Assembly (NCBI GenBank): GCA_012520915.1 | Contig: JAAYNJ010000022.1 | Location: 1 to 64,000 of the forward strand | Length of the DNA stretch: 64,000 nucleotides | Source: Oscillospiraceae bacterium | GTDB taxonomy: Bacteria; Bacillota; Clostridia; Oscillospirales; Ruminococcaceae | Direction: 5' to 3' | The notes under the pieces: generated by a model | The model's database searches: none | Told to the model about the DNA's origin: nothing | Seen by the model: only the letters and a program-made list of their open reading frames with translations | Shown here: piece after piece, positions 10,638 to 26,010 of the stretch | How the letters are laid out: each line of letters opens with the position of its first letter | Numbering within the stretch: the first letter of the stretch is position 1 | Program-made: the position numbers and the translations under genes

Positions 10638-10674
10638 TAAATTCTCCGCTTGAAGACATAATAAAAAAATCAAG

Positions 10675-10687
10675 GGTAACGTTTACC
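10675..10687. promoter_or_regulatory. LacI-family operator copy 2 (before the repressor gene)
   Basis: GGTAACGTTTACC is the same half-site pair as at 9558 with one base missing on the left arm. It lies about 40 bp upstream of the repressor start codon. Confidence 0.65.
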
Positions 10688-10724
10688 TATGATAATAACA
10701 GCCGCTCAAAAGAAAGAGAGCGAT

Positions 10725-10744
10725 TTAGGTTAACGTTTACCTAA
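10725..10744. promoter_or_regulatory. LacI-family operator copy 3, longest palindrome
   Basis: A 20-bp palindrome with a single mismatch, TTAGGTTAAC followed by GTTTACCTAA. Its core matches the sites at 9558 and 10675. The centre is about 53 bp from copy 2, a spacing that would allow cooperative or looped binding. It supports negative autoregulation of the lacI-type gene. Confidence 0.75.
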
Positions 10745-10842
10745 TTTTATAACCATTAACTATAATTTACAATCAATAAAATTCACAAACATATTTTAAA
10801 AAAACTGTAAAAACCGACAATTTGATGTTATGTGAAAAAATA

Positions 10843-10891
10843 TTGACATGAAATAAGGTTAAGTGATAATACTTACCTCATATTCATGTCA
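10843..10891 (+). promoter_or_regulatory. Plus-strand promoter embedded in an imperfect inverted repeat
   Basis: TTGACA at 10843-10848 and GATAAT at 10865-10870, with a 16-bp spacer, make a good vegetative promoter pointing right. The same DNA is an imperfect inverted repeat: outer arms TGACATGAA (10844-10852) and TTCATGTCA (10883-10891), inner arms GGTTAAGT and ACTTACC around the -10. No plus-strand gene follows until ruvX at 11698, with yjbQ antisense between. It could be an operator-controlled promoter for a small RNA or an antisense transcript. Confidence 0.5.
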
Positions 10892-10961
10892 GTAAGAAAA
10901 TTTTCAGGTACGAAAATCCGATTAGTATGTGCTAAAGAAACCAGTTATTATTGACAAAAAG

Positions 10962-11363
10962 TTAGAGTTCGCCGGCTAAGACCTTTACATAAAAGCTCCG
11001 GCTTCTTGGCGGATCAAATTCACAAAAATAAATTCCCTGCCAAATTCCAAGTACCGGCTTGCCCTCTTCAATGAGAATCGTCACACTGGAACCTACGGAT
11101 GACGCTTTAAGATGAGCCGACGAGTTTCCTTCACAATGAAGAAATTCCGCTCTGTCCGGAAAGGCCTTTTCTAATCCTAACAACATATCCGTCACGACAT
11201 CGGGGTCTGCATTTTCATTGATGGTAATACCTGCAGTCGTGTGGGGACAGTATACTACCGCGATTCCGGATTGAATACCGCTTTTTTGTATAGCCTCTCT
11301 GACCTGAGAAGTAATGGGATAAAGGTTTTCTGTAGGTGTTTTTAGTTGATACTTGTACAACAT
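10962..11363 (-). CDS. yjbQ: YjbQ family protein (UPF0047; secondary thiamine-phosphate synthase-like)
   Basis: A 133-residue small enzyme. The diagnostic blocks are VVYCPHTTAGITINENADPDV, the HCEGNSSAHLKASSVGSS region and IWQGIYFCEFDPPRSRSFYVKV. Some homologues have weak thiamine-phosphate synthase activity, but the physiological role is unsettled. The start at 11363 has AAAGGA upstream; an in-frame extension to 11405 adds only unconserved residues. The gene is alone on the minus strand between the LacI regulator region and ruvX, with no visible link to the sugar operon. Confidence 0.9.
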   Translation of the reverse strand: MLYKYQLKTPTENLYPITSQVREAIQKSGIQSGIAVVYCPHTTAGITINENADPDVVTDMLLGLEKAFPDRAEFLHCEGNSSAHLKASSVGSSVTILIEEGKPVLGIWQGIYFCEFDPPRSRSFYVKVLAGEL

Positions 11364-11697
11364 GTTGACTGTCCTTTCCGTTTTCTTAAAAAATATATTC
11401 CTCAACTAACATCTAATATGGGTTATTAGTTTACTAGGAGAAATTATATCATAATTGATTAAACGGTTATTATCTGCCCCAAAATTCACTTTAAAAACAA
11501 TAAGACTTCACATTTATCCCGGTTAAACTTCCAAAATATTGAATTAGGGATATTCTGATGAGCTCTCAAAGTTGCCTTTAAGATGCAATATGTTTAATTT
11601 AATAAACTTAAATGGTATGATGACTCAGGAAATAATAGAGCTTATGAATATAATTGAGATAAAAGACAGAAAAATATGAGCAGTTTGGAGATGCTGT
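11364..11697. other. Intergenic stretch with a candidate ruvX promoter
   Basis: The 334 bp between two divergent genes hold no supported ORF. On the plus strand TTTAAT (11593-11598), a 17-bp spacer and TATGAT (11616-11621), preceded by TGG as an extended -10, could drive ruvX. The boxes are plausible, not strong. Confidence 0.4.
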
Positions 11698-12126
11698 ATG
11701 AGAATAATGAGTGTGGATTACGGGGAAGCGCGCACCGGGATTGCCGTGAGTGACAGAATGGAGATGCTGGCAAATCCGGTAAAGGTAATATTTGAAAAAA
11801 ACACCGAAAGGACGGTTGACAGCATTATCCTCACCGCTGAGGAGTTGGGGGCGGAACTGATTATAGTGGGTTTGCCCATAAACATGGACGGCAGTGAGGG
11901 GGAGCGTGCAAAAAGAAGTAGAGAAATATCCGATATGATAGCCGAAAAAACTAAAATTCCCGTAGAGCTTTGGGATGAAAGAGGGACTACGAAAACGGCG
12001 TCCGTATATATGAATATTCTGGACCGAAAAGGGGCAAAAAGAAAAAAGAATATAGATGCCGCCGCTGCCGCAATAATCCTGGAAAGCTATCTGCAATACA
12101 GAAAAAATTTAAACCTTACCGATTAA
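11698..12126 (+). CDS. ruvX: Holliday-junction resolvase-like / pre-16S rRNA nuclease
   Basis: A 142-residue YqgF/RuvX protein with an RNase-H-like fold. The N-terminus IMSVDYGEARTGIAVSD carries the first catalytic aspartate. IIVGLPINMDGSEGERAK is the second conserved block, and the C-terminal ELWDERGTTKTA plus IDAAAAAIILESYL supply the remaining acidic residues. In E. coli the homologue matures the 5' end of 16S rRNA, and a recombination role has also been proposed. GGAG precedes the ATG by eight bases. In many Firmicutes it follows alaS and ireB; here those neighbours are absent and the gene stands alone. Confidence 0.93.
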   Translation: MRIMSVDYGEARTGIAVSDRMEMLANPVKVIFEKNTERTVDSIILTAEELGAELIIVGLPINMDGSEGERAKRSREISDMIAEKTKIPVELWDERGTTKTASVYMNILDRKGAKRKKNIDAAAAAIILESYLQYRKNLNLTD

Positions 12127-12648
12127 TTAAATGTCAATTATTGAAACATAATACTGTATAAAATGCCTCTTTTATATTTTTGTGGTGTAGCAAACAAACC
12201 TTGAGAGAAGATTTCTCAAAATGATTTTACTGCAGGTGGGTGCCCAAATTGTTTGTTGATAAAATCCGCACTTTTGATTACAATCAATTTATTGTGACAA
12301 TTATCAGAAGTTTGCAGGTGCTTAAGAGAAATCTGTTGAATTTACTGAGGTTTCTGAATTGGATGCGCTTGAAGCTACGCTGTATGATGGTATTGAAGTA
12401 GAAGTATTTACCGACTGCAGAGATGCCGTTGAAAAATGTGTGAGGATTTTCAAATTATACTAACCAGGCAAGAGAAAGAGTTCCAAATATAATAAGTTAT
12501 TTAAGTTTTGGGAACATTGCAATAATACAAGCAATGAGAAAATCTACATCTAAACCGGAAGCCCGGGTTTGATATTGCCGGATAGGAGAAAACAAAACCA
12601 TTACACAGAACGACGCAAATTGAAAATGATTAAAGGATAATAACACTA
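12127..12648. other. Gene-free stretch with a kinase remnant
   Basis: No intact ORF in 522 bp. The central part carries the decayed FGGY-kinase tail listed separately at 12314-12525. The flanks show nothing recognisable. AAAGGAT ahead of 12649 is the ribosome binding site of the next gene. Confidence 0.5.
12314..12525 (+). pseudogene. Decayed C-terminus of an FGGY-family sugar kinase (xylulokinase-like)
   Basis: The reading from about 12337 to 12464 gives VSELDALEATLYDGIEVEVF, then TDCRDAVEKCVRIFKLY and a stop. This mirrors the end of xylulokinase-type proteins, where a (E)xxALGAAxLAGxGxGVF block is followed by a helix ending VKxxxxYxP. After a shift of one frame the text continues PGKRKSSKYNKLFKFWEH, matching the usual last helix (KYxKLYxxYxxLY). 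A stop at 12323, the frameshift and lost glycines show decay. The ATPase core and N-terminus are missing. It may be the lost kinase partner of the nearby sugar operon. Confidence 0.55.
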
Positions 12649-14097
12649 ATGAGAAAGTTACTAATTAGACTTTTTAATTGGATTACCATGGGGCGAGTTT
12701 CTAACGCTTTGAATGCTTTACAAAACGTTCAACAACGTCTCTCCGGTCTGGAAAATCGATTAAATGCCATAGAAGGTAATGTGCAAAACATTGAACAAGG
12801 CTTAAATGATGTGGAAAGAAAATCCGGGTTGGCGTTAGAAGAATTAAGCTCGCAGATAGAAAGCCATGCTTTAGGTTCAATACGGCGTCACCGTGCAATT
12901 AAGCAAAATTTTAAAATGCCTTTCACCGTGGTGTTTTTGTGTGAACTGCCAGCTGCATATAACTCTTTTAAAGCTCTTGTGGAGGCTTGTGAAAAAGATG
13001 CACAGATTCAGACTATTATTGTTATAACTCCGAATAAAAAGTACAGCCCAGACGGCAGCTTTACTTATGTATACGAAGATTTTACCGATATAATTGATTA
13101 CGATTCTCCTAATGTTAAAAAGGCATATTGTGAAGCTACAAATACATGGCTCGATTTGAAATCTTTGTCCACGGATTATTTTTTTTATCAGCGGCCGTAC
13201 GATTATTATCGTTACGAAGAATACCATATAAAGGTTGTCTGCAATTATTCAAAAACATGTTGTATACCTTATTATGGTATAGGATTAAAGGTGGGAAACA
13301 ACATAATTAACTTACCTATTGATTTTTTGAGCAAACTAGATTTTTACTTTGCTGAAAATGATGAAAGGGCCGAACATTTTAGGAATAGAATAAAAAAAGA
13401 AACGGATGATTATAAAGGGAGGATAATTACTACGGGGAGTCCCCGGCTGGATTTGTCGTTAAAGTCATTTGAGAAAGAGGAATATAATCAACTTTGGAAG
13501 AAAGATGGGAAAAACGGTTATCGCATCCTCTGGGCTCCGCGTTGGAGTACTTCAGAGGGGAATTGTCATTTTTTTGACTACAAATCAGTTTTGCTCAACT
13601 ATGCGATGAAGCATAAAGATATTGAACTTTTGCTCCGGCCCCACCCCATGATGTTTGACAATTTTATATTTACCGGGGAGATGAGCGAGACTGAAGTTAA
13701 AGAATTTAAAGATAAATACAACGGAACAGATAATGTTGGTATAGACGAGACCGCCGACTACAGGACAGCACTATATACTGCGGATTGCTTGGTGGCGGAC
13801 GAAACGTCATTAATCGCAGAGTTTTTTTTGACAGGGAAACCGATAGTTTTTTGTAAAAAAATTACTCATTTTAATGCTCTTTCCGAGCGCCTTTCGAAAG
13901 GTATGTACATTGTATCAAATGAAAATGAACTTATAAGTACTTTCAATTCTTTAGTAAATGGTGAAGACAACTTGAAGGAGAAAAGGCAAAGTATAGCGGA
14001 GAAAGAATTTCCTTCAAGGTATAGAAATGCGGTAAATTTAATTAAAAACATCCTAAAAGATGATTTTTACGGAAATGATTATCTACAGGAAGACTAA
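12649..14097 (+). CDS. CDP-glycerol glycerophosphotransferase-like protein with N-terminal coiled coil
   Basis: A 482-residue predicted transferase of the CDP-glycerol:poly(glycerophosphate) transferase (TagF/TagB-like) superfamily. Residues about 20-70 (LQNVQQRLSGLENRLNAIEG and the following heptads) form a coiled coil. The catalytic half shows the superfamily landmarks ILWAPRWS, LLLRPHPMMF and DYRTALYTADCLVADETSLIAEFFLTGKPIVFC, with the His/Asp pairs expected for this GT-B fold. There is no membrane span, so it is probably peripheral at the inner face. It opens the surface-polysaccharide region and would transfer polyol-phosphate or similar units. The acceptor cannot be predicted. Confidence 0.75.
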   Translation: MRKLLIRLFNWITMGRVSNALNALQNVQQRLSGLENRLNAIEGNVQNIEQGLNDVERKSGLALEELSSQIESHALGSIRRHRAIKQNFKMPFTVVFLCELPAAYNSFKALVEACEKDAQIQTIIVITPNKKYSPDGSFTYVYEDFTDIIDYDSPNVKKAYCEATNTWLDLKSLSTDYFFYQRPYDYYRYEEYHIKVVCNYSKTCCIPYYGIGLKVGNNIINLPIDFLSKLDFYFAENDERAEHFRNRIKKETDDYKGRIITTGSPRLDLSLKSFEKEEYNQLWKKDGKNGYRILWAPRWSTSEGNCHFFDYKSVLLNYAMKHKDIELLLRPHPMMFDNFIFTGEMSETEVKEFKDKYNGTDNVGIDETADYRTALYTADCLVADETSLIAEFFLTGKPIVFCKKITHFNALSERLSKGMYIVSNENELISTFNSLVNGEDNLKEKRQSIAEKEFPSRYRNAVNLIKNILKDDFYGNDYLQED

Positions 14098-14127
14098 CCC
14101 ATGCAGAAAAGCCTTTAGATAACATCA

Positions 14128-14165
14128 AGTCTCTTATGGTAAAATTAAAATTACCATAAGAGACT
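14128..14165 (+). terminator. Perfect 15-bp inverted repeat after the transferase gene
   Basis: AGTCTCTTATGGTAA (14128-14142) pairs perfectly with TTACCATAAGAGACT (14151-14165) around an 8-base A/T loop. It is placed 30 bp past the stop codon as expected for a terminator, but it is AT-rich and lacks a long T-tract. Confidence 0.6.
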
Positions 14166-14799
14166 AATTTGCAGAAAAAAGCTCACTCCCGCTTTTAAGG
14201 GTTATGCAGCAAATTTATTTAATATGTTTATAAGGTCATTAATTAACATATATACAGCAATCTCTGTGCTTGCTTTTGGGATGATGACCTTTTTCTAATG
14301 ACTAAAGAAAAACGCAGTTTATTATTACACTTAAATCATATGCAATATAAGTGCGAGCCTATTGTCCTCTGTAAGAATGGTGTTTTTAGCAACAATTCAT
14401 TCTTCACGAACTATGGTTTTATAATCCGGATGTATCCAACTCGACTTTTTATAGGGAACATAAGTCTGTAACACCTTGTAATATGAAACATTAATGTCAA
14501 TTCATATTTTTTCAGGAGAGATAGTGTTAGAGTTGTTAACATAGCTTATTAATGGTATTATTGCACGATAAGAGGCTTTTTATTGCTATCTGACGAAGTG
14601 TTTTGCAAGATTTAATAAGATAGCTTTGTGCCGAATTTTATAAATTCGTCTTAACTATGTGTTAAGCTCTGCGAATGACGGTTTTATTTGTTTAAAACTA
14701 CTTGGATTAAAGGCGGAGCTTGGTGACAGGGCAATATAGAGAAGGTAGAAACATATATGTGGATGAAAATTATATGTATTTCTACAGAGGGAAGGTAAT
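14166..14799. other. Gene-free stretch, 634 bp, AT-rich
   Basis: Nothing recognisable lies between the inverted repeat and the membrane-protein gene. A 57-codon plus-strand ORF at 14298-14471 has no clear ribosome binding site and no family resemblance. The stretch may be a decayed gene of the polysaccharide locus. Confidence 0.45.
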
Positions 14800-16875
14800 A
14801 TGTCAAAAATTAAGAAATTATTTTTAATCATATTTATAGTCGCGTTCTTAATATCAATACAGTTTCAGTCTGAAATAAAAAACTGGGCTCATTCGAACCC
14901 GAAAACTAAAAAAGTCGTAATACAAACGATTGACAGTATCGGGGGAGAATACTCCCAGTTTCTTCCCCTGATATTAACGGACGGTTTTTCTTTTAATGGT
15001 ATTAATCAAGGGGATTACAAATTTTCTCTACCTTTCGAAAAGTTGGAAAATCTGATTGTAGAAAATAAAGGTTTTCGGAAATTTTCGAAAGAAGAATCTC
15101 CCTACGGCGAAGCGGTCTATGTCTCGCAATCGCCGGATGCCTATTTGATTATAAATTTGCCATACTTACCGGAAACGTCTTTGTTTTTCCTCGACGGAGA
15201 TGTTGGCTCCTATGCTGTAGTCACCGTTGACGATGAGCAACAGATTTTTTGGTTTGGTAAAGGGGCTGAAGGCGTACAGACCGTCCAGGTTTTTCCCTTT
15301 AGAGATTTGAGAGTGTATATAAATCTTTATACCCGGTATTTTTTAGCTTATTCTGTATTAATCGTAAGTATGTTTGTGTTGATTTCTATTGGCGCTTTTC
15401 TTTTGAATAGATATGGGGATGCGCTGACAGATAATGTTCTGGACCTTAAAGCCCAAAGGTGGGTTTTTTGTATTGTGTTCATTTTACTGTTTGCGGGCAC
15501 ATCGTTTTACTATTATAAAAATAGCGAGAGCTATTATCGGGTATTAAATGTAAAATCTCAAGCGGATGTATATTTCTATACCCACCCCAATTTTTACGAC
15601 GAAAATGGGCAAGCTTCTCTATACAATTTTGTAAATAATTTTGGTATGTCGCATAGAGGCTTTTATATGCCGCTTGTTTGGGGCGGGTATAATTTGATTG
15701 CCGGTGTTGTAAACATAGATCCTCAATACATTCATCTCTTTGTTTTGACATTATTAATAACATGTACTTTTGTTTTTGCTGTTCCGCAAATAGCGAAAAC
15801 GCTCTTCAATATTCAACCGACGGTAGTTTCATGTGTGGTATCCATACTTTTGTTTTTATTTTTTTGGAAATGGTGGATTTTTTACTATATGCCCGATATT
15901 CCGAGTCTTTGCTTTTTTATCCTATCCATAGCTTCATTAATGAAAGGTCTTGAATCTAAGTTGTTGTCAAATTGGTTTTTGAGCGGGATTTTTATATCCT
16001 TATCCATAAATTTGCGCAGTTTCTACATAGTTACACTATATTTCATCATCGCTTTTGCGGTTTGGACAATCTGGAAAGAAAGAAATCCCGTCAAAAAGAT
16101 TGAAAACGGGAAGTTGCGATGTTGTCCGGTATCGCTTTGGGGGATGTTTTTTATTGGAGTTGTGCTCGCTACATTGCCTCAATTTGCTCTGGGGTTGATG
16201 AAGATGAACGGGAAATTTGCGCTGTTTCCGTATTCACCGGCTTGGAAAACAGACTATACTAACGGTTTTCATCAATCTATGGCTCTAAGATCATTTCAAA
16301 ACGGCTCAAATGCCTACTATTTTATGGGGCCACGGGGAAAAGACAGACAAATTGCCAGCTTCAGTCATCTTTTTTACGATAGATTGTTATCAAAAAAGGA
16401 CATATTATTGATGTGTCTGAGCGAGCCGTTAACTTTTTTTTCGCTTATGGGGAAAAAAGCTCTTGTGGCGTTTACACCACATATTGAAGATAATTATAGA
16501 GGCGGTGTATCGTCATTAATCGTCAATTTGTCAAGAAATATTTCTTTATTGTTACAGGCGGGAGTTATATTTTCGCTAAAACAGAAACTGCTTGCTTTAA
16601 AGAAAAATTCCCGCCTTGTTTTGTTTGCCGCCGGAATTTTGGTTATGAATACGTTGCCGTTATTGCTTTTGCATATTGAACTTAGATATTTTATGTTCGC
16701 AAATTGGGTTTTGATATTTATATTTACCTATGTTACTTTACCGGTTCTTATTCGAAACGGCAAGAAAGGTTCCGAAGGGAAAGAGAATTTAATCAGGAAA
16801 TTTACTTTATCATCGATTGTCTATTGTTATGTAATGGGTGTGTTTCTTGATACAATTTGGAAAAATTTCCTTTAA
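14800..16875 (+). CDS. Large polytopic membrane protein, probable GT-C-type glycosyltransferase
   Basis: A 691-residue integral membrane protein. Residues about 6-21 form a first span, followed by a ~165-residue extracytoplasmic domain. Roughly ten hydrophobic spans then start near residue 183 (AYSVLIVSMFVLISIGAFLL). This one-plus-many layout with large loops is typical of lipid-linked-sugar GT-C enzymes and of polymer-modifying membrane proteins. I see no unambiguous family motif. GGGAAGG lies just ahead of the ATG. It is 33 bp upstream of rfbF and probably in its transcript, so a role in exporting, polymerising or decorating the glycan with the CDP-derived sugar is inferred. Confidence 0.65.
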   Translation: MSKIKKLFLIIFIVAFLISIQFQSEIKNWAHSNPKTKKVVIQTIDSIGGEYSQFLPLILTDGFSFNGINQGDYKFSLPFEKLENLIVENKGFRKFSKEESPYGEAVYVSQSPDAYLIINLPYLPETSLFFLDGDVGSYAVVTVDDEQQIFWFGKGAEGVQTVQVFPFRDLRVYINLYTRYFLAYSVLIVSMFVLISIGAFLLNRYGDALTDNVLDLKAQRWVFCIVFILLFAGTSFYYYKNSESYYRVLNVKSQADVYFYTHPNFYDENGQASLYNFVNNFGMSHRGFYMPLVWGGYNLIAGVVNIDPQYIHLFVLTLLITCTFVFAVPQIAKTLFNIQPTVVSCVVSILLFLFFWKWWIFYYMPDIPSLCFFILSIASLMKGLESKLLSNWFLSGIFISLSINLRSFYIVTLYFIIAFAVWTIWKERNPVKKIENGKLRCCPVSLWGMFFIGVVLATLPQFALGLMKMNGKFALFPYSPAWKTDYTNGFHQSMALRSFQNGSNAYYFMGPRGKDRQIASFSHLFYDRLLSKKDILLMCLSEPLTFFSLMGKKALVAFTPHIEDNYRGGVSSLIVNLSRNISLLLQAGVIFSLKQKLLALKKNSRLVLFAAGILVMNTLPLLLLHIELRYFMFANWVLIFIFTYVTLPVLIRNGKKGSEGKENLIRKFTLSSIVYCYVMGVFLDTIWKNFL

Positions 16876-16908
16876 TATCGAATATTGTGAAACGGAAGGG
16901 ATATAAAA

Positions 16909-17682
16909 ATGAAAGTGGTAATACTTGCGGGGGGTCTTGGTACGAGAATTACCGAGGAGAGTCAATTTAAACCTAAACCTATGATTGAGATAGGAAATAT
17001 GCCTATTATTTGGCATATTATGAAATCGTATTCGCATTACGGATATAACGAATTTATAATATGTGCGGGCTATAAACAGCATATTATAAAAGAATATTTT
17101 GCGAATTATTATATGTATAATTCGGACATAACCTTTGATTTTTCAAGAGAAAATAAACTTACGGTGCATAATAATGAAAGCGAACCGTGGAAAGTCACTA
17201 TAGTGGATACAGGCCTTTATACCATGACAGGAGGAAGGGTTAAAAGGGTGAGCAGATATATTGGCACCGATACATTTATGCTCACATATGGCGATGGAGT
17301 TTGCGATATCGATATAAATGACTTGGAAAAATTCCACAAGGCTCATAAGAAAAAGGCGACGATTACCGCAATCCAGCCCGGAGGAAGATTCGGAGCGCTC
17401 GATATAGATAAGGAAGGAGTAATAAAGTCGTTCGTAGAGAAAAAGAAAGAAGACGGCGGTTGGATAAACGGCGGGTTTATGGTGCTTGAGCCTGATATAA
17501 TGGATTTAATTGATGACGATGCTGTTATTCTTGAAAGATATCCTCTGGAGGAATTGTCAAGACAAAACGAACTTATAGCCTATAAACATCACGGGTTTTG
17601 GCAATGCATGGATACGCTCAGAGATAAGGAGTTCCTGGAGAGTTTGCTACTAAATGGCAGAGCGCCTTGGGTAAAATGGTAG
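16909..17682 (+). CDS. rfbF: Glucose-1-phosphate cytidylyltransferase
   Basis: It makes CDP-D-glucose from CTP and glucose-1-phosphate, the first step to all CDP-3,6-dideoxyhexoses. The 257 residues match the family. The N-terminal nucleotide-binding motif is LAGGLGTRITEESQFKPKPM, followed by NEFIICAGYKQHIIKEYF, LTYGDGVCDIDI and the C-terminal HHGFWQCMDTLRDKEFLE. A strong GGAAGGG precedes the ATG. It is followed 19 bp later by rfbG, the next enzyme. By hand count all ten arginines use AGA/AGG, as in the surrounding genome and unlike the genes from about 19.7 to 23.4 kb. Confidence 0.96.
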   Translation: MKVVILAGGLGTRITEESQFKPKPMIEIGNMPIIWHIMKSYSHYGYNEFIICAGYKQHIIKEYFANYYMYNSDITFDFSRENKLTVHNNESEPWKVTIVDTGLYTMTGGRVKRVSRYIGTDTFMLTYGDGVCDIDINDLEKFHKAHKKKATITAIQPGGRFGALDIDKEGVIKSFVEKKKEDGGWINGGFMVLEPDIMDLIDDDAVILERYPLEELSRQNELIAYKHHGFWQCMDTLRDKEFLESLLLNGRAPWVKW

Positions 17683-17701
17683 TATTCTAACGGGTGAAAT
17701 C

Positions 17702-18760
17702 ATGAAAAATTTAAAAGATTTCTATGAAAATAAAACCGTGCTGATCACGGGCCATACGGGTTTTAAAGGAAGTTGGCTTTGTCACATATTGCTAAACCTA
17801 GGTGCAAAAATAGTTGGGTATGCTCTTGAGCCGGAGACTGAACCGAGCTTATTTTGTTTATCTTTTCTTGATAAAAAGGTAATAAGCATAATCTCCGATA
17901 TCAGGGACTATGAAAAACTTAAAAAGGAATTTGATACCCACAAACCGGAAATAGTATTTCACCTAGCAGCTCAACCTATAGTAAGAGACAGTTACAAAGA
18001 TCCGAGATACACATATGATACGAACGTTATGGGAACGGTAAACGTACTTGAATGTATAAGAAACACCGATTGCGTTAAAAGCTTTTTAAACGTAACCACA
18101 GATAAGGTCTATAAAAATAAAGAATGGGTCTGGGGATACAGAGAAAATGAGGAGTTGGATGGGTATGACCCGTATTCCAACAGCAAAAGCTTATCGGAAC
18201 TCGCGACATGGACTTATGTAAGAAGTTTTTTTGAAGATAGAAATGTTTCCGTCTCTACCGCAAGAGCGGGAAATGTGATAGGCGGAGGGGATTTTTCCAA
18301 TGACAGAATTATCCCCGATTGCGTGAGAGCAGTGGAAAAATGCGAGGATATTATAGTTAGAAATCCGTATTCCATAAGACCTTATCAGCATGTTCTGGAG
18401 CCCCTGTTTGCATACCTTATGATAGCGGAAAAACAGTATGACAATAAAGATTACCAGGGAGCATATAATGTAGGACCTAATGAGACGGATTGCGTTACCA
18501 CCGGCACACTTGTCAATCTGTTTTGCAAAAATTGGGGAAATCAGGCAAGATGGAAAAACATATCGGAAAAAAATGCGCCTCATGAAGCGGGCTTCTTAAA
18601 GCTCGACTGCTCTCTAATTAAATCCAAATTTAATTGGAAACCTAAATGGGATGTGGATGAGGCAATTAAAAAAACATGCAGTTGGACTAAAATCTGGTTG
18701 GAAAATGGCGATGTCGCAAATGAAATGTTAAATCAGATTAATCTATATATGGAGGAATAA
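17702..18760 (+). CDS. rfbG: CDP-glucose 4,6-dehydratase
   Basis: This NAD-dependent extended short-chain dehydrogenase converts CDP-glucose to CDP-4-keto-6-deoxyglucose. It is 352 residues long. The Rossmann motif TGHTGFKGSW is at about residues 17-26. FHLAAQPIVRDSYKDPRYTY is the family-specific second block, VTTDKVYKNKEW holds the catalytic Thr/Asp/Lys, and DPYSNSKSLSEL gives the YxxxK pair. It sits directly behind rfbF with GGTGA ahead of the ATG. Arginines are nearly all AGA/AGG, as in rfbF and rfbH, marking it as part of the older layer of this locus. It supplies the substrate for RfbH. Confidence 0.96.
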   Translation: MKNLKDFYENKTVLITGHTGFKGSWLCHILLNLGAKIVGYALEPETEPSLFCLSFLDKKVISIISDIRDYEKLKKEFDTHKPEIVFHLAAQPIVRDSYKDPRYTYDTNVMGTVNVLECIRNTDCVKSFLNVTTDKVYKNKEWVWGYRENEELDGYDPYSNSKSLSELATWTYVRSFFEDRNVSVSTARAGNVIGGGDFSNDRIIPDCVRAVEKCEDIIVRNPYSIRPYQHVLEPLFAYLMIAEKQYDNKDYQGAYNVGPNETDCVTTGTLVNLFCKNWGNQARWKNISEKNAPHEAGFLKLDCSLIKSKFNWKPKWDVDEAIKKTCSWTKIWLENGDVANEMLNQINLYMEE

Positions 18761-19220
18761 TTTTGGGATTACTATTACTTGTATAGTCGGATTTGTCGGA
18801 AGTATTCTGAACTATGATGTTTTATTAAAATTGAGTTATTGGTGTTAAGACATATAAAACAGAAACTATTGGAGATATCGTAATTTCGAGCTTATTATCC
18901 GCCGCACCAAATAACAATGTGTAAGAGCGGGGCAGACCACAAAAAACCGCCTCCATATAAGACTATTCGTTCAGAGATTGGGGGCGGATTATATATGCCC
19001 AAGTGGAAAGATTCAAACACGAGCACTTTTATCTGTAAATTTAATGTGCCATCCTTGTCTTGACCAAATGAGAAACGCTGATGTGTATCGGATAATCGGA
19101 GAGCTACTGATTGTTGAAAAAAGATTATAATAATATTTTTGGGGTTGGAATTTACCCGGTAATAGAGAGGGTAATGATAGAGGGATGACGAAGATGATAA
19201 TGGTGGGAGTAAAATAAGGG
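18761..19220. other. Junction region between rfbG and gtrA, 460 bp
   Basis: No supported plus-strand gene. Just after rfbG a short plus reading (CIVGFVGSILNYDVLLKL) loosely resembles the N-terminus of a class II glutamine amidotransferase, but it stops after 20 codons. A minus-strand ORF spans 18895-19230 without a family match, and a minus-strand terminator-like hairpin lies inside it. The purine-rich end (19155-19220) carries the gtrA ribosome binding site. This is where codon use begins to change. Confidence 0.45.
18941..18987 (-). terminator. Minus-strand hairpin with T-tract in the rfbG-gtrA gap
   Basis: Reading the minus strand, CCGCCCCC (18987-18980) can pair with GGAGGCGG (18954-18947) with one mismatch across a 25-base loop, followed by six T (18946-18941). 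It resembles the 3' end of an independent minus-strand transcript. No protein gene is evident upstream of it on that strand. Confidence 0.4.
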
Positions 19221-19700
19221 ATGAAGGCAAAGGGTTATATAGTAAAGTTTTTAGAGCAACACATGGACCAATTTATTAAATTCGGTCTGGTTGGTGTTTC
19301 CAACACACTAATTTCTTATGTTACTTATGCTGTTCTTGTGTATTTTGGAGTGCAATATGTGTTTGCGAATGTTATAGCATTTGTAATAAGTGTGCTTAAC
19401 TCTTTTTATTGGAACAATAAATTCGTTTTTAAAAAAGAAAAAGATGAAACGCGGAGTGTTTTTCGCTCTCTCCTTAAAACTTTTATTTCTTATGCCTCTA
19501 CGGGGTTGATTTTAGCGAATTTTTTGCTTTTAATCCTTGTGGAAAAATTCAAAATTTCAAAATACCTTGCTCCGGTATTTATTTTAGTGGTTACGATTCC
19601 GCTTAATTTTCTTTTAAATAAATTTTGGGCGTTTAAAACACAAAGAAAGAGATTGGTAGAAGAGAATGAAGAAAATAAGTGTTCTGATTGCATGCTTTAA
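19221..19700 (+). CDS. GtrA-family membrane protein (probable lipid-linked sugar flippase)
   Basis: A 159-residue protein with four predicted spans and the GtrA signature opening, QFIKFGLVGVSNTLISYVTY, then FVISVLNSFYWNNKFVFK and the closing PLNFLLNKFWAFK. By family knowledge it moves an undecaprenyl-phosphate-linked sugar across the membrane so that a GT-C enzyme can use it outside. It overlaps the next gene, a GtrB-like glycosyltransferase, by 35 bp. That arrangement is typical of gtrA-gtrB pairs that modify surface glycans. GGGAG lies a little far upstream of the ATG. Met at 19264 is an alternative start but lacks a better site. Confidence 0.88.
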   Translation: MKAKGYIVKFLEQHMDQFIKFGLVGVSNTLISYVTYAVLVYFGVQYVFANVIAFVISVLNSFYWNNKFVFKKEKDETRSVFRSLLKTFISYASTGLILANFLLLILVEKFKISKYLAPVFILVVTIPLNFLLNKFWAFKTQRKRLVEENEENKCSDCML

Positions 19701-20607
19701 TGAAGAAGAGAACGTGGTTGGTATTTCAAAAGCTGTTGAAGAAGAATTAAAAAAGAATTGTAGCAACTACGACTATGAGATTTGTTTTATTGACAATTGT
19801 TCTACCGACAACACTCGTGCGTTAATCCGTGAAATTTGCAAACAAAATCCAAAAATTAAGGCTATCTTTAACGCACGTAACTTTGGACAGTTTAATTCGC
19901 CCTATTATGGAATGTGTCAGCTCAATGGCGATTGTGTCATTAAACTCGCCGCAGATTTCCAAGACCCTGTCGAACTTATTCCCCAATTTATACAAAAGTG
20001 GGAAAAAGGAGCAAAAATAGTCTCTGCTATTAAAACTCGCAGCAAGGAAAACCCTGTTATGCGTTTTTTGCGCACAATTTATTATAAATTGATTAAAAAA
20101 ATGAGTGATGTAGAGCAAATTGAACATTTTACAGGCTTCGGTTTATATGATAAAAGTTTTATCGAAGTAATGCGTAACTTGCATGACCCTACACCTTTTT
20201 TACGAGGAATAGTTGCGGAATTAGGCTTTAAACGTGTTGAAATTCCCTATACACAGGCAAAACGCAAGGCAGGAAAAACACACAACAACTGGTACTCTCT
20301 TTTTGATGCTGCAATGCTTTCATTTACTTCATATACAAAAATCGGTTTGCGTATCGCAACTATAGGAGGTTTTATTCTTGCAGTACTCAGTTTTTTTGTA
20401 GCTCTGTTTTATTTTATTTATAAACTTTTAAACTGGGACAGTTTTGCAGCCGGAATGGCACCACTAGTAATAGGTATGTTTTTCTTTAATTCAATCCAAT
20501 TATTTTTTATAGGTTTCTTAGGTGAATACATAATGAGTATAAATGCTCGGGTGATGAACCGCCCACTTGTAATCGAAGAAGAACGAATTAATTTTGAAAA
20601 CATATAA
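19666..20607 (+). CDS. Family 2 glycosyltransferase, GtrB/DPM1-like with C-terminal membrane anchor
   Basis: A 313-residue polyprenyl-phosphate glycosyltransferase. The GT-A domain shows VLIACFNEEENV, FIDNCSTDNT, the metal-binding LAADFQDP near residue 97 and the acceptor-side GFGLYDKSF. Two C-terminal spans follow (GGFILAVLSFFVALFYFIYK and PLVIGMFFFNSIQLFFIGFL). It should load a nucleotide-activated sugar onto undecaprenyl phosphate for the adjacent GtrA. All 14 arginine codons are CGN by hand count, while rfbF upstream uses only AGA/AGG, so the gene looks imported. A second, broken copy of its C-terminus lies at 23488-23673. Confidence 0.92.
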   Translation: MKKISVLIACFNEEENVVGISKAVEEELKKNCSNYDYEICFIDNCSTDNTRALIREICKQNPKIKAIFNARNFGQFNSPYYGMCQLNGDCVIKLAADFQDPVELIPQFIQKWEKGAKIVSAIKTRSKENPVMRFLRTIYYKLIKKMSDVEQIEHFTGFGLYDKSFIEVMRNLHDPTPFLRGIVAELGFKRVEIPYTQAKRKAGKTHNNWYSLFDAAMLSFTSYTKIGLRIATIGGFILAVLSFFVALFYFIYKLLNWDSFAAGMAPLVIGMFFFNSIQLFFIGFLGEYIMSINARVMNRPLVIEEERINFENI

Positions 20608-20629
20608 CCCGATTGATGGAGATAAATTG

Positions 20630-22480
20630 ATGAAAAAAAGACTTGCAGATTATGTTGCGGATTTCTTGGCAGATGCTGGAATTACAGATTGCTTCACGGT
20701 TACAGGCGGCGGAGCGATGCATTTAAATGACGCGTTTGGACATCATCCCAAAATGCAGTGTACCTATAATCATCATGAGCAAGCCTGTGCTATAGCTGCC
20801 GAAGGTTATGCTCGATTAAATAATAAAACAGCCTTGGTTTGCGTTACTTCGGGACCCGGCGGCACCAATGCTCTTACCGGTGTTGTAGGTGGCTGGCTCG
20901 ATTCAGTTTCTATGCTTATTATTTCAGGACAAGTGCGTTATGATACCACAGCTCGTTATAACGAAAGATTTACTGACGGCTTGAAACTAAGAGCATTGGG
21001 TGATCAGGAGTTTGACATAACAAAAGCCGCTTCAAGTATGTGCAAATATGCGGTTATGATTGAAGACCCCAAACAAATTCGATATGAGTTGGAGCGAGCT
21101 ATGCATTTCCTTAAAACAGGACGTCCCGGACCTGTTTGGATTGATATACCCGTAAATTTTCAAGGTGCGTATATAGAAGTAGATAAATTAGAATCGTACC
21201 ATGGAAGCAGGGATGAAAACGCCGATTTGAAAGCTCTTCCTCCGAAAGTAAGTGATAAGACAATTGAAACGGTTCTGGAAAAAATTAAAAACGCAAAGCG
21301 GCCTGTTTTATATGCAGGAAATGGAATTCGTCTTTCGGGCGCTTATGAGGAATTCAGAAAAGCGGTTGAACTTTTAGGCGTTCCTGTTTGTACCTTCAGG
21401 ACTTCTGTTGATTTAATTGAAACCGAACATCCTCTTTATTGTGGACGTGGCGGAAGTGTGGGGGATAGGGCAGGCAACTTTGCCGTACAAAATTCTGACC
21501 TTTTGCTTGTTGTCGGAAATCGTTTGTCAATTCGTGTCGTAGGTTATAATTGGAAGACTTGGGCGCGCGAAGCGGAAGTGATTATGGTTGATATAGATGA
21601 GGCGGAGTTAAAAAAATCGACTATTCATGTTGAGTTTCCAATCCATGCAGATGCGAAAGATTTTTTAAATGCAATCATCAAAAAATGCGAAGGAACAAAA
21701 ACTCCGGTTTTTACAGGCGAAAATTGGATAAAGATATGCCAAAACTGGAAAAAAAATTATCCCGTTGTGTTAGAACGACATTGGGACGAAGATGGCAACT
21801 TTGCAAATGTCTATGCAACCTTTGACTATATCAGCAAAACTATTCCCGAAGGAACGTTAACGGTATCGAGTGTCGGAGCTTGTGCGGCGGCAGGGCATCA
21901 AAGCTGGTATATAAAAAAAGACACTCGGTTTTTTACAAGTAATGGTGCGGCGAGTATGGGCTATGGCTTACCTGCGGCAATCGGCGCATGTGTGGCAAAT
22001 GATAGAAAGCCTATGATTTGCCTGGAAGGTGACGGCAGCATAATGATGAATTTACAGGAGTTGCAAACTGTTGTTACCAATAGACTGCCAATAAAAATAT
22101 TTTTAATAAATAACGCGGGCTATCATTCTATAAGGCAAACACAAAACAATATTTTTGCCGGTAGGAGTAAAGTGGGAATAGGACCTGAAAGTGCCGATTT
22201 GACTTTCCCCTCGTTCAAAAAAATAGCCTATGCTTTTGACATTCCATATTATGAAGCTCATTCAAATGCCGAAATGAAAAAAGCTGTGGACAATACCTTA
22301 AATGAACCTTCATTTGTGATGTGTGAAATTTTTGTTTCAACCACCCAATTTTTTGAGCCCAAAAGTGCTGCAAAAAAACTTCCCGACGGTACGATTATAA
22401 GTCCTCCTTTGGAGGATATGGCGCCGTTTTTGCCTCGTGAAGAGCTGCTGAAAAATTTGTATATAAAACCATTGTTTTGA
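20630..22480 (+). CDS. Thiamine-diphosphate-dependent acetolactate-synthase-like enzyme (YerE-like)
   Basis: A 616-residue three-domain ThDP enzyme. The N-terminal Pyr domain has GGGAMHLNDAFGHHP and catalytic Glu50 in the HEQACAIAAEGYAR block. TSGPGGTNALTGVVGGWLDS follows, and the C-terminal PP domain has the ThDP/Mg motif EGDGSIMMN (about 465-473) leading to LINNAGYHSIRQTQ. It is not an ordinary IlvB: it sits inside a CDP-dideoxysugar locus with no small subunit. In Yersinia, YerE adds a two-carbon unit from pyruvate to C4 of CDP-4-keto-3,6-dideoxyglucose, and this is the best-fitting role here. The start at 20630 has GGAG eight bases upstream. Arginine codons are mixed with many CGN. Confidence 0.82.
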   Translation: MKKRLADYVADFLADAGITDCFTVTGGGAMHLNDAFGHHPKMQCTYNHHEQACAIAAEGYARLNNKTALVCVTSGPGGTNALTGVVGGWLDSVSMLIISGQVRYDTTARYNERFTDGLKLRALGDQEFDITKAASSMCKYAVMIEDPKQIRYELERAMHFLKTGRPGPVWIDIPVNFQGAYIEVDKLESYHGSRDENADLKALPPKVSDKTIETVLEKIKNAKRPVLYAGNGIRLSGAYEEFRKAVELLGVPVCTFRTSVDLIETEHPLYCGRGGSVGDRAGNFAVQNSDLLLVVGNRLSIRVVGYNWKTWAREAEVIMVDIDEAELKKSTIHVEFPIHADAKDFLNAIIKKCEGTKTPVFTGENWIKICQNWKKNYPVVLERHWDEDGNFANVYATFDYISKTIPEGTLTVSSVGACAAAGHQSWYIKKDTRFFTSNGAASMGYGLPAAIGACVANDRKPMICLEGDGSIMMNLQELQTVVTNRLPIKIFLINNAGYHSIRQTQNNIFAGRSKVGIGPESADLTFPSFKKIAYAFDIPYYEAHSNAEMKKAVDNTLNEPSFVMCEIFVSTTQFFEPKSAAKKLPDGTIISPPLEDMAPFLPREELLKNLYIKPLF

Positions 22481-22488
22481 GGTCTGAA

Positions 22489-23382
22489 ATGAAAAAGCTA
22501 CTGCTTACAGGTGCTACGGGACTGATAGGTACTGCTATTGTTGGAGAAGCAATACAGAGAGAATATAAAGTGACATGTCTTGTAAATCCTAACAGCACTC
22601 GAGAAGCTAATATTCCAAAACACAAAAATATAACAATTACCCACTGCAATATTGATGAATATAATGCTTTTGAAGTAAAAGAAAAATATGATGTTTTTAT
22701 GCATTTAGCTTGGGAAAAAACAGTTGGTTCCGGGCGTGATGATGTGGATACGCAGCTGAAAAATATTCAGCATACTTTAGATGCTATCAAACTTGCAAAA
22801 CGTGCCGGATGTAAAACCTTTGTCGGTGCCGGCTCGCAAGCGGAATATGGTGTGCAGAAAGTTAATTTAACGCCTGAGCTGGCGGTGCAGCCAACTAGTG
22901 GCTATGGTATAGCAAAATATGCTGCAGGGTGTTTAGGCAAGTTATTATGCGAACAACTTGGAGTACATTTTAATTGGATTCGCATTTTGAGTACCTATGG
23001 AAAAAACGATGGAGAACACACTCTTATTAGCCACTGCATAAACGAGTTAAAAAACGGACGTTCTCCACAGCTTACAAAATGTGAACAAATTTGGGACTAT
23101 TTAAATGCAAAAGATGCCGCCTGTGCATTTTTTGCGGTTGCTGAACGTGGTATTGATGGAAAGATATATCCTTTAGGCGCGGGAGTCGGACGATCCTTAC
23201 GTGATTATGCTATTGAAATAGCACAAATTATTAATCCTGAGATACAACTGGATTTTGGGGTAAAAGAATATTATCCACATCAGCCAATGTACTTAGTGGC
23301 TGATATTTCTGAACTTACCCAAGATACCGGCTGGAAACCTAGTATAAGTTTTAGTGAAGGGATTAAGGAAATGCTGGTGTGA
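22489..23382 (+). CDS. Extended short-chain dehydrogenase, nucleotide-sugar reductase
   Basis: A 297-residue NAD(P)-dependent SDR. The cofactor loop GATGLIG is at residues 8-14. The catalytic pair is Tyr139/Lys143 in SGYGIAKYA, with GAGSQAEYG upstream holding the serine. ATG 22489 is chosen because GAGG overlaps the preceding stop at ideal spacing; a TTG at 22477 lies before that site. It belongs with RfbJ/RfbS/YerF-type enzymes that reduce the keto group left after earlier steps. Next to the ThDP enzyme it would most simply reduce the acetyl branch of a CDP-sugar. Eight of nine arginines counted are CGN, again unlike rfbFGH. Confidence 0.82.
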   Translation: MKKLLLTGATGLIGTAIVGEAIQREYKVTCLVNPNSTREANIPKHKNITITHCNIDEYNAFEVKEKYDVFMHLAWEKTVGSGRDDVDTQLKNIQHTLDAIKLAKRAGCKTFVGAGSQAEYGVQKVNLTPELAVQPTSGYGIAKYAAGCLGKLLCEQLGVHFNWIRILSTYGKNDGEHTLISHCINELKNGRSPQLTKCEQIWDYLNAKDAACAFFAVAERGIDGKIYPLGAGVGRSLRDYAIEIAQIINPEIQLDFGVKEYYPHQPMYLVADISELTQDTGWKPSISFSEGIKEMLV

Positions 23383-23487
23383 AAAAATCGATATTTAGCT
23401 CCATCTCTCTATTTTGGAATCCTGTAACACCTAACGATTAATTCACAATAAATTTGGCTTAAATATTTTAATTGCGTCTACCTGATA

Positions 23488-23673
23488 TTGAAGTTGATAT
23501 ATTGGGATAAATTTCCTGCAGGGACTGCACCCATATTGATAGGCGTGTTTTTGTTGGGTTCGATTCAGCTGTTTTTTATAGATTTTCTTGAGGAATACAT
23601 TATCAACATAAATACAAGAATTATGAAAAGGCCCTTGGTCGTAGAGAAAAGAAATATTAATTTTGATGAATAA
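23488..23673 (+). pseudogene. C-terminal remnant of a second GtrB-like glycosyltransferase
   Basis: The 61-codon reading IYWDKFPAGTAPILIGVF through GSIQLFFIDFLEEYIININT to RIMKRPLVVEKRNINFDE lines up with the last 62 residues of the intact glycosyltransferase at 19666-20607. The catalytic domain is gone, and upstream of 23488 the frame breaks up. At nucleotide level the two tails have diverged, so it is not a recent duplication. Its three arginines are AGA/AGG, matching rfbF/rfbG/rfbH and not the intact copy. It therefore looks like the stump of the original resident glycosyltransferase. The remaining ~100 bp after the SDR stop show nothing else. Confidence 0.85.
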
Positions 23674-23687
23674 AATGCGGAGAAAAA

Positions 23688-25007
23688 ATGGATAAATTAA
23701 GACAGGAAATTTTGGAAAAAGTAAAAGAATACTATAAGGAATATCATGAAGTTAAAAACGAAAAATTCGAAGCGGGAAAAGACCTGGTGACTTTCGCCGC
23801 AAGAGTATATGATGAAGAAGAGATGGTCAATCTGGTGGATGCTTCTCTTGACTTCTGGCTTACGGCGGGAAGATATGCAAAAGAATTTGAGAAATCTTTT
23901 GCTGAATATATGCAAAACAGATATGCGTTACTCACAAACTCCGGATCATCCGCAAATCTTCTAGCTCTTACCGCCCTCACATCACCTTTATTAAAAGATA
24001 AAAGACTTAAAAAAGACGATGAAGTTATAACGGTGGCGGCAGGTTTTCCGACCACTATAAATCCTATTGTGCAAAACGGGCTTATTCCGGTATTTGTGGA
24101 TGTGGAAATAGGTACTTATAATATTAAAATTGATGAGTTGCAGGAAGCTCTGTCTGAAAAAACAAGAGCTATTATGATAGCTCATACTCTCGGAAATCCC
24201 TTTGATCTTTCTTCCGTTATGAAATTTGCAAAGGATAATAACCTATATGTGGTTGAAGATTGCTGTGATGCGGTAGGCTCAATATATGACGGAAAACCGG
24301 TCGGAACATTCGGGGATATCTCAACGGTCAGTTTTTATCCCGCTCATCATATGACCATGGGTGAGGGCGGTGCTGTAGTAACGAGCGATCCTATACTCTA
24401 TAAAGCGATAAAATCTCTCAGGGATTGGGGCAGAGATTGTTTTTGCGATCCGGGAGTAAACAATTCCTGCGGCAAGAGATTTACGGGGCAATACGGCACC
24501 CTTCCCAAAGGCTACGACCATAAGTATGTGTATTCCCATGTGGGCTATAACTTGAAGGTAACTGATATGCAGGCAGCCATAGGTGTGGCACAACTGAAAA
24601 AATTACCTGTTTTTATAGAAAGAAGAAAAGAGAATTTTAAAAAGTTGAGCGCGGGTTTAAAAAAATTTGAAGAGTATCTTATACTCCCCCGGGCCACGGA
24701 AAACTCGGATCCTTCCTGGTTTGCCTTCCCTATAACGCTTAGAGAAAACTGCAATTTCACTAAAAACGAAATTGTCGCTTTTCTGGAAGAGAAAAAAATA
24801 CTCACAAGAGAGTTGTTTGCAGGAAATATTACAAGACAACCTGCCTTTGAAGATGTGGAGTATAGGATTGTCAGTGAACTTAAAAATACCGATTATATAA
24901 TGAATAATACATTCTTCATAGGAGTGTATCCCGGAATAGATGAAAGAAAGTTGAATTATATTATAGAAACGTTTGAAAGCTTTTTTGATAATCTAATCGC
25001 AAACTAA
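23688..25007 (+). CDS. rfbH: CDP-4-keto-6-deoxyglucose 3-dehydrase (E1)
   Basis: This PMP- and [2Fe-2S]-dependent enzyme removes the C3 hydroxyl to give the 3,6-dideoxy precursor. It has the aminotransferase fold, but in SFYPAHHMTMGEGG the usual PLP lysine is replaced by His220, the hallmark of E1. Cys193, Cys251, Cys253 and Cys261 form the C-x57-C-x-C-x7-C iron-sulfur motif, identical in position to Yersinia E1. The length, 439, is normal. CGGAG precedes the ATG. No E3-type (RfbI/AscD) ferredoxin reductase is encoded in the window, so its electron donor must be elsewhere. Arginine codons are host-like. Confidence 0.96.
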   Translation: MDKLRQEILEKVKEYYKEYHEVKNEKFEAGKDLVTFAARVYDEEEMVNLVDASLDFWLTAGRYAKEFEKSFAEYMQNRYALLTNSGSSANLLALTALTSPLLKDKRLKKDDEVITVAAGFPTTINPIVQNGLIPVFVDVEIGTYNIKIDELQEALSEKTRAIMIAHTLGNPFDLSSVMKFAKDNNLYVVEDCCDAVGSIYDGKPVGTFGDISTVSFYPAHHMTMGEGGAVVTSDPILYKAIKSLRDWGRDCFCDPGVNNSCGKRFTGQYGTLPKGYDHKYVYSHVGYNLKVTDMQAAIGVAQLKKLPVFIERRKENFKKLSAGLKKFEEYLILPRATENSDPSWFAFPITLRENCNFTKNEIVAFLEEKKILTRELFAGNITRQPAFEDVEYRIVSELKNTDYIMNNTFFIGVYPGIDERKLNYIIETFESFFDNLIAN

Positions 25008-25045
25008 TTTAAGTTCCGATATATTATTGTTATATTACTGAAAAC

Positions 25046-25072
25046 AAAAAAACCGCGTAATGCGGTTTTTTT
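25046..25072. terminator. Bidirectional terminator between rfbH and degV
   Basis: AAAAAAACCGC (25046-25056) pairs with GCGGTTTTTTT (25062-25072), giving a T-tract on both strands. It can end the plus-strand glycan operon and the minus-strand degV transcript. Confidence 0.9.
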
Positions 25073-25090
25073 GATCGCGGATTTGAAATT

Positions 25091-25948
25091 TTAAAGACTC
25101 TCGGCAAGAAATGCGATGACGATACCGCCCCTGCTGGCATATACGGATGATAATCCGCTTGTAGCTGAAATTATCACATCTTTTATCGCATTGCACTCGG
25201 AGAGAATTCTATCTTTTAGCTCAACAGCTCTCTCAAAACAACAACATTGACTCATCGTCAGGATAATTGATTTCGGTTTAATTGGGGAAGTCCATTCTCC
25301 TATTAAATTGGTCATCCGGTTAAGAGAATTCTTTAATCCGCGCACTTTTGCGGCAACCTTAATCTCTTTGGATTTGAATTTGTAGAGAATGGGATAAATA
25401 TTTAAAAGTGAAATGATTTTTTCTGTTACCTTGTCAATGCGCCCGTTTCGAACCATATTTCCAAGGTCTTCCAACACGAACACGGTACACATTTTTTCTG
25501 CAAAAATTTCCGCTTTTGTTGTGATATCCTCAAATGACATGCCTTCTTTTATCAGCTTGTCAATATACAAAGCCAATAAAGTCTCTCCGGATGCCACGCT
25601 CTGCGAATTTAAAACATACACTTTCTTATCGGGATAGTTCTCGATAATCATCTCTCTTGCAGCACAAGCAGAATTATATGATCCGCTCAAAAAGTCTGCC
25701 AAAGTGATTACTATGCACTCATCGCAACGCTCCATAAGCGAATAGTAGTCCTCGACAGAGGGACAGTTTGTTTTCAGCCATTTACTTTTTTGCATGCGAT
25801 TCAGCAAATTTTCAATGTCTAAATCCAAACTGTCAACTACTTCATATCCGTCGGAAAGTGATATCTTAAGCGGAGCGATAAGTAGATCTATTTCATCTCT
25901 CATCTCTTCGGTTGTATCACAACAACTGTCAACAATAATTTTAATCAT
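25091..25948 (-). CDS. DegV family fatty-acid-binding protein
   Basis: A 285-residue DegV/EDD-fold protein. Recognisable blocks are the N-terminal IIVDSCCDTTEEM, TNCPSVEDYYSLM, the ligand-site ITLADFLSGSYNSACAAREM and VYVLNSQSVASGETLLAL. Family members bind a long-chain fatty acid in a deep pocket; in staphylococci and streptococci FakB homologues present fatty acids to the kinase FakA. No fakA is visible here. The canonical FakB motif TSQPS reads TNCPS in this protein, placing it with the wider DegV group. It is monocistronic, converging on the glycan operon. Confidence 0.9.
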   Translation of the reverse strand: MIKIIVDSCCDTTEEMRDEIDLLIAPLKISLSDGYEVVDSLDLDIENLLNRMQKSKWLKTNCPSVEDYYSLMERCDECIVITLADFLSGSYNSACAAREMIIENYPDKKVYVLNSQSVASGETLLALYIDKLIKEGMSFEDITTKAEIFAEKMCTVFVLEDLGNMVRNGRIDKVTEKIISLLNIYPILYKFKSKEIKVAAKVRGLKNSLNRMTNLIGEWTSPIKPKSIILTMSQCCCFERAVELKDRILSECNAIKDVIISATSGLSSVYASRGGIVIAFLAESL

Positions 25949-25980
25949 TTATATCCCTGAATGTGGTGAAATGTGACGAC

Positions 25981-26010
25981 TTTAGCGAGCTTACATTATT
26001 GCTCGCTAAA
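25981..26010. terminator. Hairpin downstream of glgA
   Basis: TTTAGCGAGC (25981-25990) and GCTCGCTAAA (26001-26010) form a perfect 10-bp stem with a 10-base loop, 31 bp past the glgA stop. It is the probable end of the glycogen operon, though no long T-tract follows. Confidence 0.6.

Follow-up and report, generated by a model that had tools for sequence, protein, structure and literature searches.

How a bacterium looks to phages, hosts and immune systems depends on its surface sugars, and genes for the finishing steps of such sugars are known to be exchanged. The dideoxyhexose O-antigen loci of Salmonella and Yersinia undergo such modular exchange. Cytidine diphosphate (CDP)-3,6-dideoxy-4-keto-glucose is presumably the product of RfbF, RfbG and RfbH, and in CDP-yersiniose synthesis YerF acts as the reductase of the branch. 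YerE joins activated acetaldehyde from pyruvate to CDP-3,6-dideoxy-4-keto-glucose (PMC12247030; for the chemistry also PMC8533242). JanthE (8rph; PMC12188165) is called YerE-like (PMC12247030, PMC12188165), and a three-component model of glycosylation with GtrB, GtrA and a GT-C enzyme is described in PMC11127046. Here we analysed a stretch of 64,000 nucleotides (the window; GenBank assembly GCA_012520915.1, contig JAAYNJ010000022.1, positions 1 to 64,000) of an Oscillospiraceae bacterium, a clostridial genome of 1.9 Mb in 32 contigs. It carries a 3,6-dideoxyhexose locus with rfbF, rfbG and rfbH, and between these flanks lies a cassette of gtrA, a family 2 glycosyltransferase (GT2), a thiamine diphosphate (ThDP) enzyme and a short-chain dehydrogenase/reductase (SDR). 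Judged from the sequence, the centre of a resident clostridial locus was probably replaced by a Treponema-type block that included a stump of the donor's rfbH.

Gene order and gene remnants

Family models and remnant searches give the gene order rfbF-rfbG-psi-rfbH-gtrA-GT2-ThDP-SDR-psi-GT2-rfbH, with the following features.

16909..17682, + strand: rfbF, glucose-1-phosphate cytidylyltransferase (TIGR02623, 393 bits, cut-off 300); flank, taken as resident
17702..18760, + strand: rfbG, CDP-glucose 4,6-dehydratase (TIGR02622, 446 bits, cut-off 278); flank, taken as resident
18808..19211, + strand: psi-rfbH, degenerate remnant of the 3' end of a second rfbH; the aligned part is 18847-19211, the stretch back to about 18808 was added by eye
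19221..19700, + strand: gtrA, putative flippase for a lipid-linked sugar (PF04138, 90.6 bits); cassette
19666..20607, + strand: GT2, GtrB/ArnC-like polyprenyl-phosphate sugar transferase (PF00535); cassette
20594..22480, + strand: ThDP enzyme, YerE-like, three TPP domains (decarboxylase superfamily); cassette; the open reading frame (ORF) begins with TTG, but translation more likely starts at the ATG at 20630
22477..23382, + strand: SDR, likely YerF-type reductase (PF01370); cassette; the ORF begins with TTG at 22477, but translation more likely starts at the ATG at 22489
23461..23673, + strand: psi-GT2, 3' remnant of another GT2 by homology to GT2; taken as resident
23688..25007, + strand: rfbH, intact CDP-4-keto-6-deoxyglucose-3-dehydrase (NF011936, 724 bits, cut-off 423)

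The gap of 460 base pairs between rfbG and gtrA (18761-19220) occurs only once in the genome and matches the rfbH of many loci (tblastx E 7e-19). A frameshift-aware alignment finds 64 of 122 residues of psi-rfbH identical to the rfbH of Treponema RUI346 (L073 in our numbering of compared loci), with a score of 150; the highest score among 40 shuffles is 41. The remnant, which the sequence-only reading had missed, is truncated at the 5' end, has lost about 109 residues internally and is interrupted by five frame breaks and three stops. With a score of 69, the intact downstream rfbH comes 74th of 77 when compared with it. Among the sites that distinguish this rfbH from that of L073, psi-rfbH agrees with L073 at 29 and with the intact gene at 2 (P 5e-7). 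An origin of psi-rfbH as a copy of the intact downstream rfbH is rejected by these sites, though tree tests alone do not exclude it.

Rows entered the trees if they passed a bit-score cut and reached 80% of the query length (65% in the case of L212-L225); longer stretches covering the same regions were used instead of L003-L031, and L156-L178 and L227-L237 are in no tree. Nine of 83 compared rfbHs, nine of which are from Treponemataceae, have at least 58 of 111 residues identical to psi-rfbH, and six of the nine are Treponemataceae. A careful tree of a 37-row subset groups psi-rfbH, on a long decayed branch, with nine Treponema rfbHs (support 100/97.6). Of 16 Treponema-diagnostic columns, psi-rfbH has the Treponema residue in seven, that of the others in two and neither in seven. 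From these comparisons psi-rfbH appears to group with Treponema, less firmly than GT2 does. In another genome of the window's family, an rfbH match (L074; G252 contig C66, 43660-44943) carries one in-frame TAA.

At the other end of the cassette, the stretch 23488-23673 shows 68% DNA identity to the end of GT2 (E 3e-10), and the homology begins near 23461 (57% to GT2 residues 242-311). Its best match is the clostridial GT2 of L032 with 45 of 60 residues, versus 36 of 60 for the window's own GT2. No other close GT2 was found elsewhere in the genome (best 29%), so that the tail has no intact partner there. The sequence-only reading had taken this 61-codon tail for the remnant of a second glycosyltransferase, and it is indeed a real 3' remnant of a related gene. 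By its codon use the tail looks as if it belongs with the flanks, and it resembles clostridial GT2s most.

Codon composition

Arginine is encoded by CGN codons in 39 of 54 cases in the cassette vs 1 of 40 in rfbF, rfbG and rfbH. The hand counts of the sequence-only reading are confirmed by computation: all 14 arginines of GT2 and eight of nine of the SDR are CGN, and all ten of rfbF are AGA/AGG. Its statement that rfbG and rfbH use almost only AGA/AGG agrees with CGN counts of 0/13 and 1/17; the tail has 0/3. For the SDR the count is 8/10 if read from the TTG at 22477, in which case codon 2 is AGG, and 8/9 from the ATG at 22489. The ThDP enzyme (15/26) and gtrA (2/4), for which that reading had listed no counts, are milder than GT2 and SDR.

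The background for these values consists of 176 ORFs that come from 20 stretches of this genome and have a CGN fraction of 0.363. The CGN share of GT2 exceeds that of every one of the 151 background ORFs with at least 8 arginines (binomial P 7e-7), and rfbF, rfbG and rfbH lie at about the 3rd percentile of background CGN use. Random pairs of gene groups from this genome, 2168 in all, never reach the difference of 0.70 between cassette and flanks. Under a codon model that sets Treponema (42 ORFs of Treponema RUI346) against the own genome, GT2 scores +11.9 and SDR +11.1, against a maximum of 11.4 and a 95th percentile of 0.9 among the 176 background ORFs. The model gives +2.8 for gtrA and −3.8 for the ThDP enzyme. 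With values of −15 to −19, close to the background median of −19.4, rfbF, rfbG, rfbH and the tail score like ordinary own-genome genes.

Upstream of rfbF, two genes encoding CDP-glycerol-type and PMT_2 transferases (12649-16875) are also codon-atypical (90th and 98th percentile), and the zone of foreign or mosaic DNA may therefore extend further to the left. The following feature lies in this region.

14800..16875, + strand: GT-C type membrane glycosyltransferase, PMT_2 (PF13231, 29.6 bits, cut-off 26.1); candidate acceptor enzyme by inferred role

An Rfam scan of 10000-26000 gave 0 matches. No tRNA gene was found in the window, and a reading as a tRNA-linked island was dropped for this reason.

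Kinship of cassette and flanks

Among the first loci the best partner of the window's SDR is that of Treponema UBA4319 (L033) with 60% identity, the next having 48%. SDRs of 57-67% identity are present in 15 of 274 genomes of Treponemataceae, the family of Treponema RUI346; other matches, sought in 392 genomes of the family to which the window belongs, reach 49% at most. In a careful 47-row tree, the window's SDR is nested inside 15 Treponema rows (100/96), and a Treponema clade without it is rejected (P 0.014). The first SDR tree was built without 11 named remote SDRs and the 47-row tree without 15. One of the 15 comes from the Treponema L043; it is of a different kind and fell apart from the other Treponema SDRs in the first tree. 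In Treponemataceae genome G839 (contig C32 26288-26989, in L214) a second, broken SDR copy with two TGA and one TAA lies about 5 kb from the intact one. It is possibly another cassette scar.

GT2 groups with four Treponema GT2 rows (support 97). In a tree built without 18 named remote paralogues, the ThDP enzyme belongs to a group of seven rows that includes four from Treponema and one each from Lachnospiraceae and Oscillospiraceae. GT2, ThDP and SDR are adjacent and in the same order in Treponema L223, and in L033 with one intervening gene. Order and kinship in these two loci fit a transfer in which at least GT2, ThDP and SDR moved together.

Pairing rfbF with that of L033 is rejected (P 4e-5), and the nine Treponema rows of rfbF and the nine of rfbG each form a clade with support 99, the window lying outside. 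The gtrA-GT2-ThDP-SDR block that the sequence-only reading had called foreign finds support for GT2 and SDR, which differ from rfbF, rfbG and rfbH in codons and have Treponema kin, and more weakly for gtrA and the ThDP enzyme.

Proposed replacement

According to our model, the incoming Treponemataceae-type DNA would start inside the donor rfbH and run through gtrA, GT2, the ThDP enzyme and the SDR. The left edge would lie just after the resident rfbG and the right edge inside a resident GT2, the 3' end of which would remain before the intact rfbH. One replacement of this kind would explain why both stumps are without their 5' parts, and it would also account for the composition and for the tree positions of SDR and GT2. 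The donor rfbH stump may have decayed because the intact rfbH stayed in the cell. That this was a single event, and in this direction, we infer from the arrangement. The sequence-only reading had placed the insertion between rfbG and rfbH with a native stump on its right. The tail does side with the flanks, and the import probably begins earlier, inside a donor rfbH right after rfbG.

The resident order with GT2 before rfbH, which the same reading had presumed, was not found. Of 100 compared loci that extend far enough on the upstream side, none has GT2 immediately before rfbH, and none shows the resident layout; rfbH directly follows rfbG in 69 of 104. L092 (on the contig of L062), L172 (at the location of L103) and, inadvertently, L168 were not part of this count. 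The only other genome of the genus has a contig of 6345 bases that ends about where the locus would begin. Gene order among the relatives is very variable. L098, L104 and L111, all of the same family, share another layout with a diverged rfbF-rfbG-ThDP followed by an rfbH-like aminotransferase and rfbH. An order rfbH-gtrA-GT2 in Treponema was considered and failed, as L073 has an epimerase-like gene (named by eye; 4959-5558) between rfbH and GT2. This gene sits where some other loci have gtrA.

Evidence against the replacement and alternative explanations

The missing resident layout and the short contig of the other genome of the genus weigh against a replacement, and so do the results gathered in this and the next paragraph. 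On composition, 6.7% of 1450 random pairs show an all-codon contrast as large as that between block and flanks. The compositional break of the sequence-only reading therefore holds for arginine and is only suggestive over all codons. As a codon model for the block, a locus from Desulfosporosinus equals or surpasses Treponema, and for this reason composition alone names no donor. Within the cassette, nine of 13 Treponema ThDP rows are placed elsewhere in the tree and the closest single relative of the ThDP enzyme is the clostridial L032 (71%). No gtrA was seen in the Treponema blocks, and the one gtrA of 42% in L213 stands apart from the block. Separate trees for flanks and centre, from which distinct histories had been expected, give the SDR inside Treponema and reject rfbF with L033, but they do not reject rfbF and rfbG as sisters of all Treponema (P 0.65 and 0.80). 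Trees with the window constrained to this sister position even outscored the free search for both genes. For rfbH and rfbG, pairings with single Treponema rows are for the most part not rejected: rfbH with L033 gives P 0.064, and rfbG with L033, L073 and L212 gives P 0.18, 0.057 and 0.03, the L033 row of rfbG being a partial reading of 281 residues. The intact rfbH, too, is an outlier, as none of its matches exceeds 61% identity, and hence the flanks may not share one history.

Several tests of the two remnants point the same way. Pairing psi-rfbH with the intact rfbH is not rejected in the large tree (P 0.595) or in the focused tree (P 0.084), and in the large tree this constraint gave a higher likelihood than the free search. 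A Treponema clade without psi-rfbH is not rejected either (P 0.072). Site counts for Treponema versus other mainstream rfbHs are weak (10:5 against L071, P 0.30; 11:8 against L075), and the Treponema rfbHs of L043 and L224 rank 21st and 31st of 83 for psi-rfbH. The frames of psi-rfbH were read against L073 and may favour it. For the tail, a pairing with the window's own GT2 is not rejected (P 0.119) in a tree of 60 columns.

Three other histories were weighed. In one, which we consider unlikely but the most serious competitor, the locus was always F-G-H-gtrA-GT2-ThDP-SDR; its rfbH decayed in place and a fragment with the GT2 tail and an intact rfbH arrived downstream. Psi-rfbH sits exactly where rfbH usually lies, after rfbG, and the order F-G-H-gtrA-GT2 exists in L061 and L080. 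This history would also explain why none of the 100 loci has GT2 before rfbH, and the outlying rfbH and the sister position of rfbF and rfbG that the trees allow agree with it. However, rfbF, rfbG, rfbH and the tail share native-like codons and GT2 and SDR do not, and the arriving rfbH would have had to bring the GT2 tail along. Furthermore, psi-rfbH fits the rfbH of L073 over those of the nearest kin of rfbF in the first tree (17:6 for L062, 15:4 for L106 and 17:5 for L108), a point limited by the same comparison with L033 or L043, which is not significant.

An old mosaic, built by several small exchanges over time and with remnants from different steps, seems improbable to us. The variable gene order of relatives, the atypical upstream PMT gene and the weaker signals of ThDP and gtrA compared with GT2 and SDR would suit it, but the joint order and kinship of GT2-ThDP-SDR in L223 and L033 would not. 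We give hardly any weight to a locus without import, in which expression or chance would account for the codon contrast and the tail would have arisen by tandem duplication of the cassette GT2 and later decay. The unrejected pairing of tail and own GT2 and the modest all-codon contrast are compatible with it. It is opposed by the greater similarity of the tail to L032, the SDR nested among Treponema and the arginine contrast beyond all random pairs. Taken together, replacement by a Treponema-type block is the account we hold probable.

Predicted function

The ThDP enzyme matches JanthE with 413 bits vs 237 bits for the best acetolactate synthase. Aligned to 8rph it carries GDG and HHEQA, positions which we take to be the ThDP motif and the catalytic glutamate. 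JanthE itself has CDG according to PMC12247030. YerE-type genes occur in many clostridia: one scan found 42 ThDP loci, three of them in Treponema. Their association with rfbH is strong. In 31 of the 42, rfbH is near the ThDP gene; eight of the other 11 were searched genome-wide and all eight have rfbH elsewhere, L051, L065 and L069 lying outside this search. No match labelled YerF appeared in the SDR search, and the YerF-type role of the SDR therefore rests on its context. The nearest solved relatives of GT2 are sll0501 (5eke, best, E 4e-40) and ArnC; these relatives, together with GtrA, point to loading of the sugar onto undecaprenyl phosphate and to its subsequent flipping, in line with the three-component model.

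The expected product of the block is thus a sugar of the CDP-yersiniose type, which would be loaded on undecaprenyl phosphate. RfbF, RfbG and RfbH would supply CDP-3,6-dideoxy-4-keto-glucose, to C4 of which the YerE-like enzyme would attach a two-carbon unit from pyruvate. The SDR would reduce the branch in the manner of YerF to give the CDP-yersiniose-type sugar. GT2 would transfer this sugar to undecaprenyl phosphate, GtrA would flip it, and a GT-C enzyme, perhaps that at 14800-16875, would attach it to a surface polymer. A swap of the final sugar, which the sequence-only reading had proposed, is plausible.

Comparison with known systems

The locus would be a well-marked new case of the exchange of sugar-finishing genes across phyla, and its meaning lies in being a readable case in which a whole sugar-finishing module would have crossed. 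Tentatively, a branched-octose module of lipid loader, flippase, YerE-like and YerF-like enzymes may move between spirochaetes and clostridia as a surface-sugar switch, and this locus may have caught one switch with broken genes of both donor and recipient legible at the joints.

Its closest described counterparts are the YerE and YerF steps of the CDP-yersiniose A pathway (Yersinia pseudotuberculosis O6 and O12) and the YerE-like lyases ErwE and JanthE. As in these, a ThDP enzyme of the same kind lies beside the genes for CDP-3,6-dideoxy-4-keto-glucose and an SDR. Unlike them, the host is clostridial, and gtrA and a GtrB/ArnC-like GT2 are added, so that the sugar is probably lipid-loaded. We found no report of yersiniose-type sugars in clostridia in the literature searched, most subscription journals lying outside the search. 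The three-component glycosylation systems are resembled by a PF00535 GT2, a PF04138 GtrA and a PF13231 GT-C candidate within 6 kb, the GT-C being linked by its presumed role, whereas the predicted donor here is a CDP-branched sugar. With the dideoxyhexose loci of Salmonella and Yersinia the locus has in common the CDP-dideoxy backbone genes and swappable last steps. In contrast to these, the exchange proposed here would have taken place between phyla, and two gene stumps are still readable.

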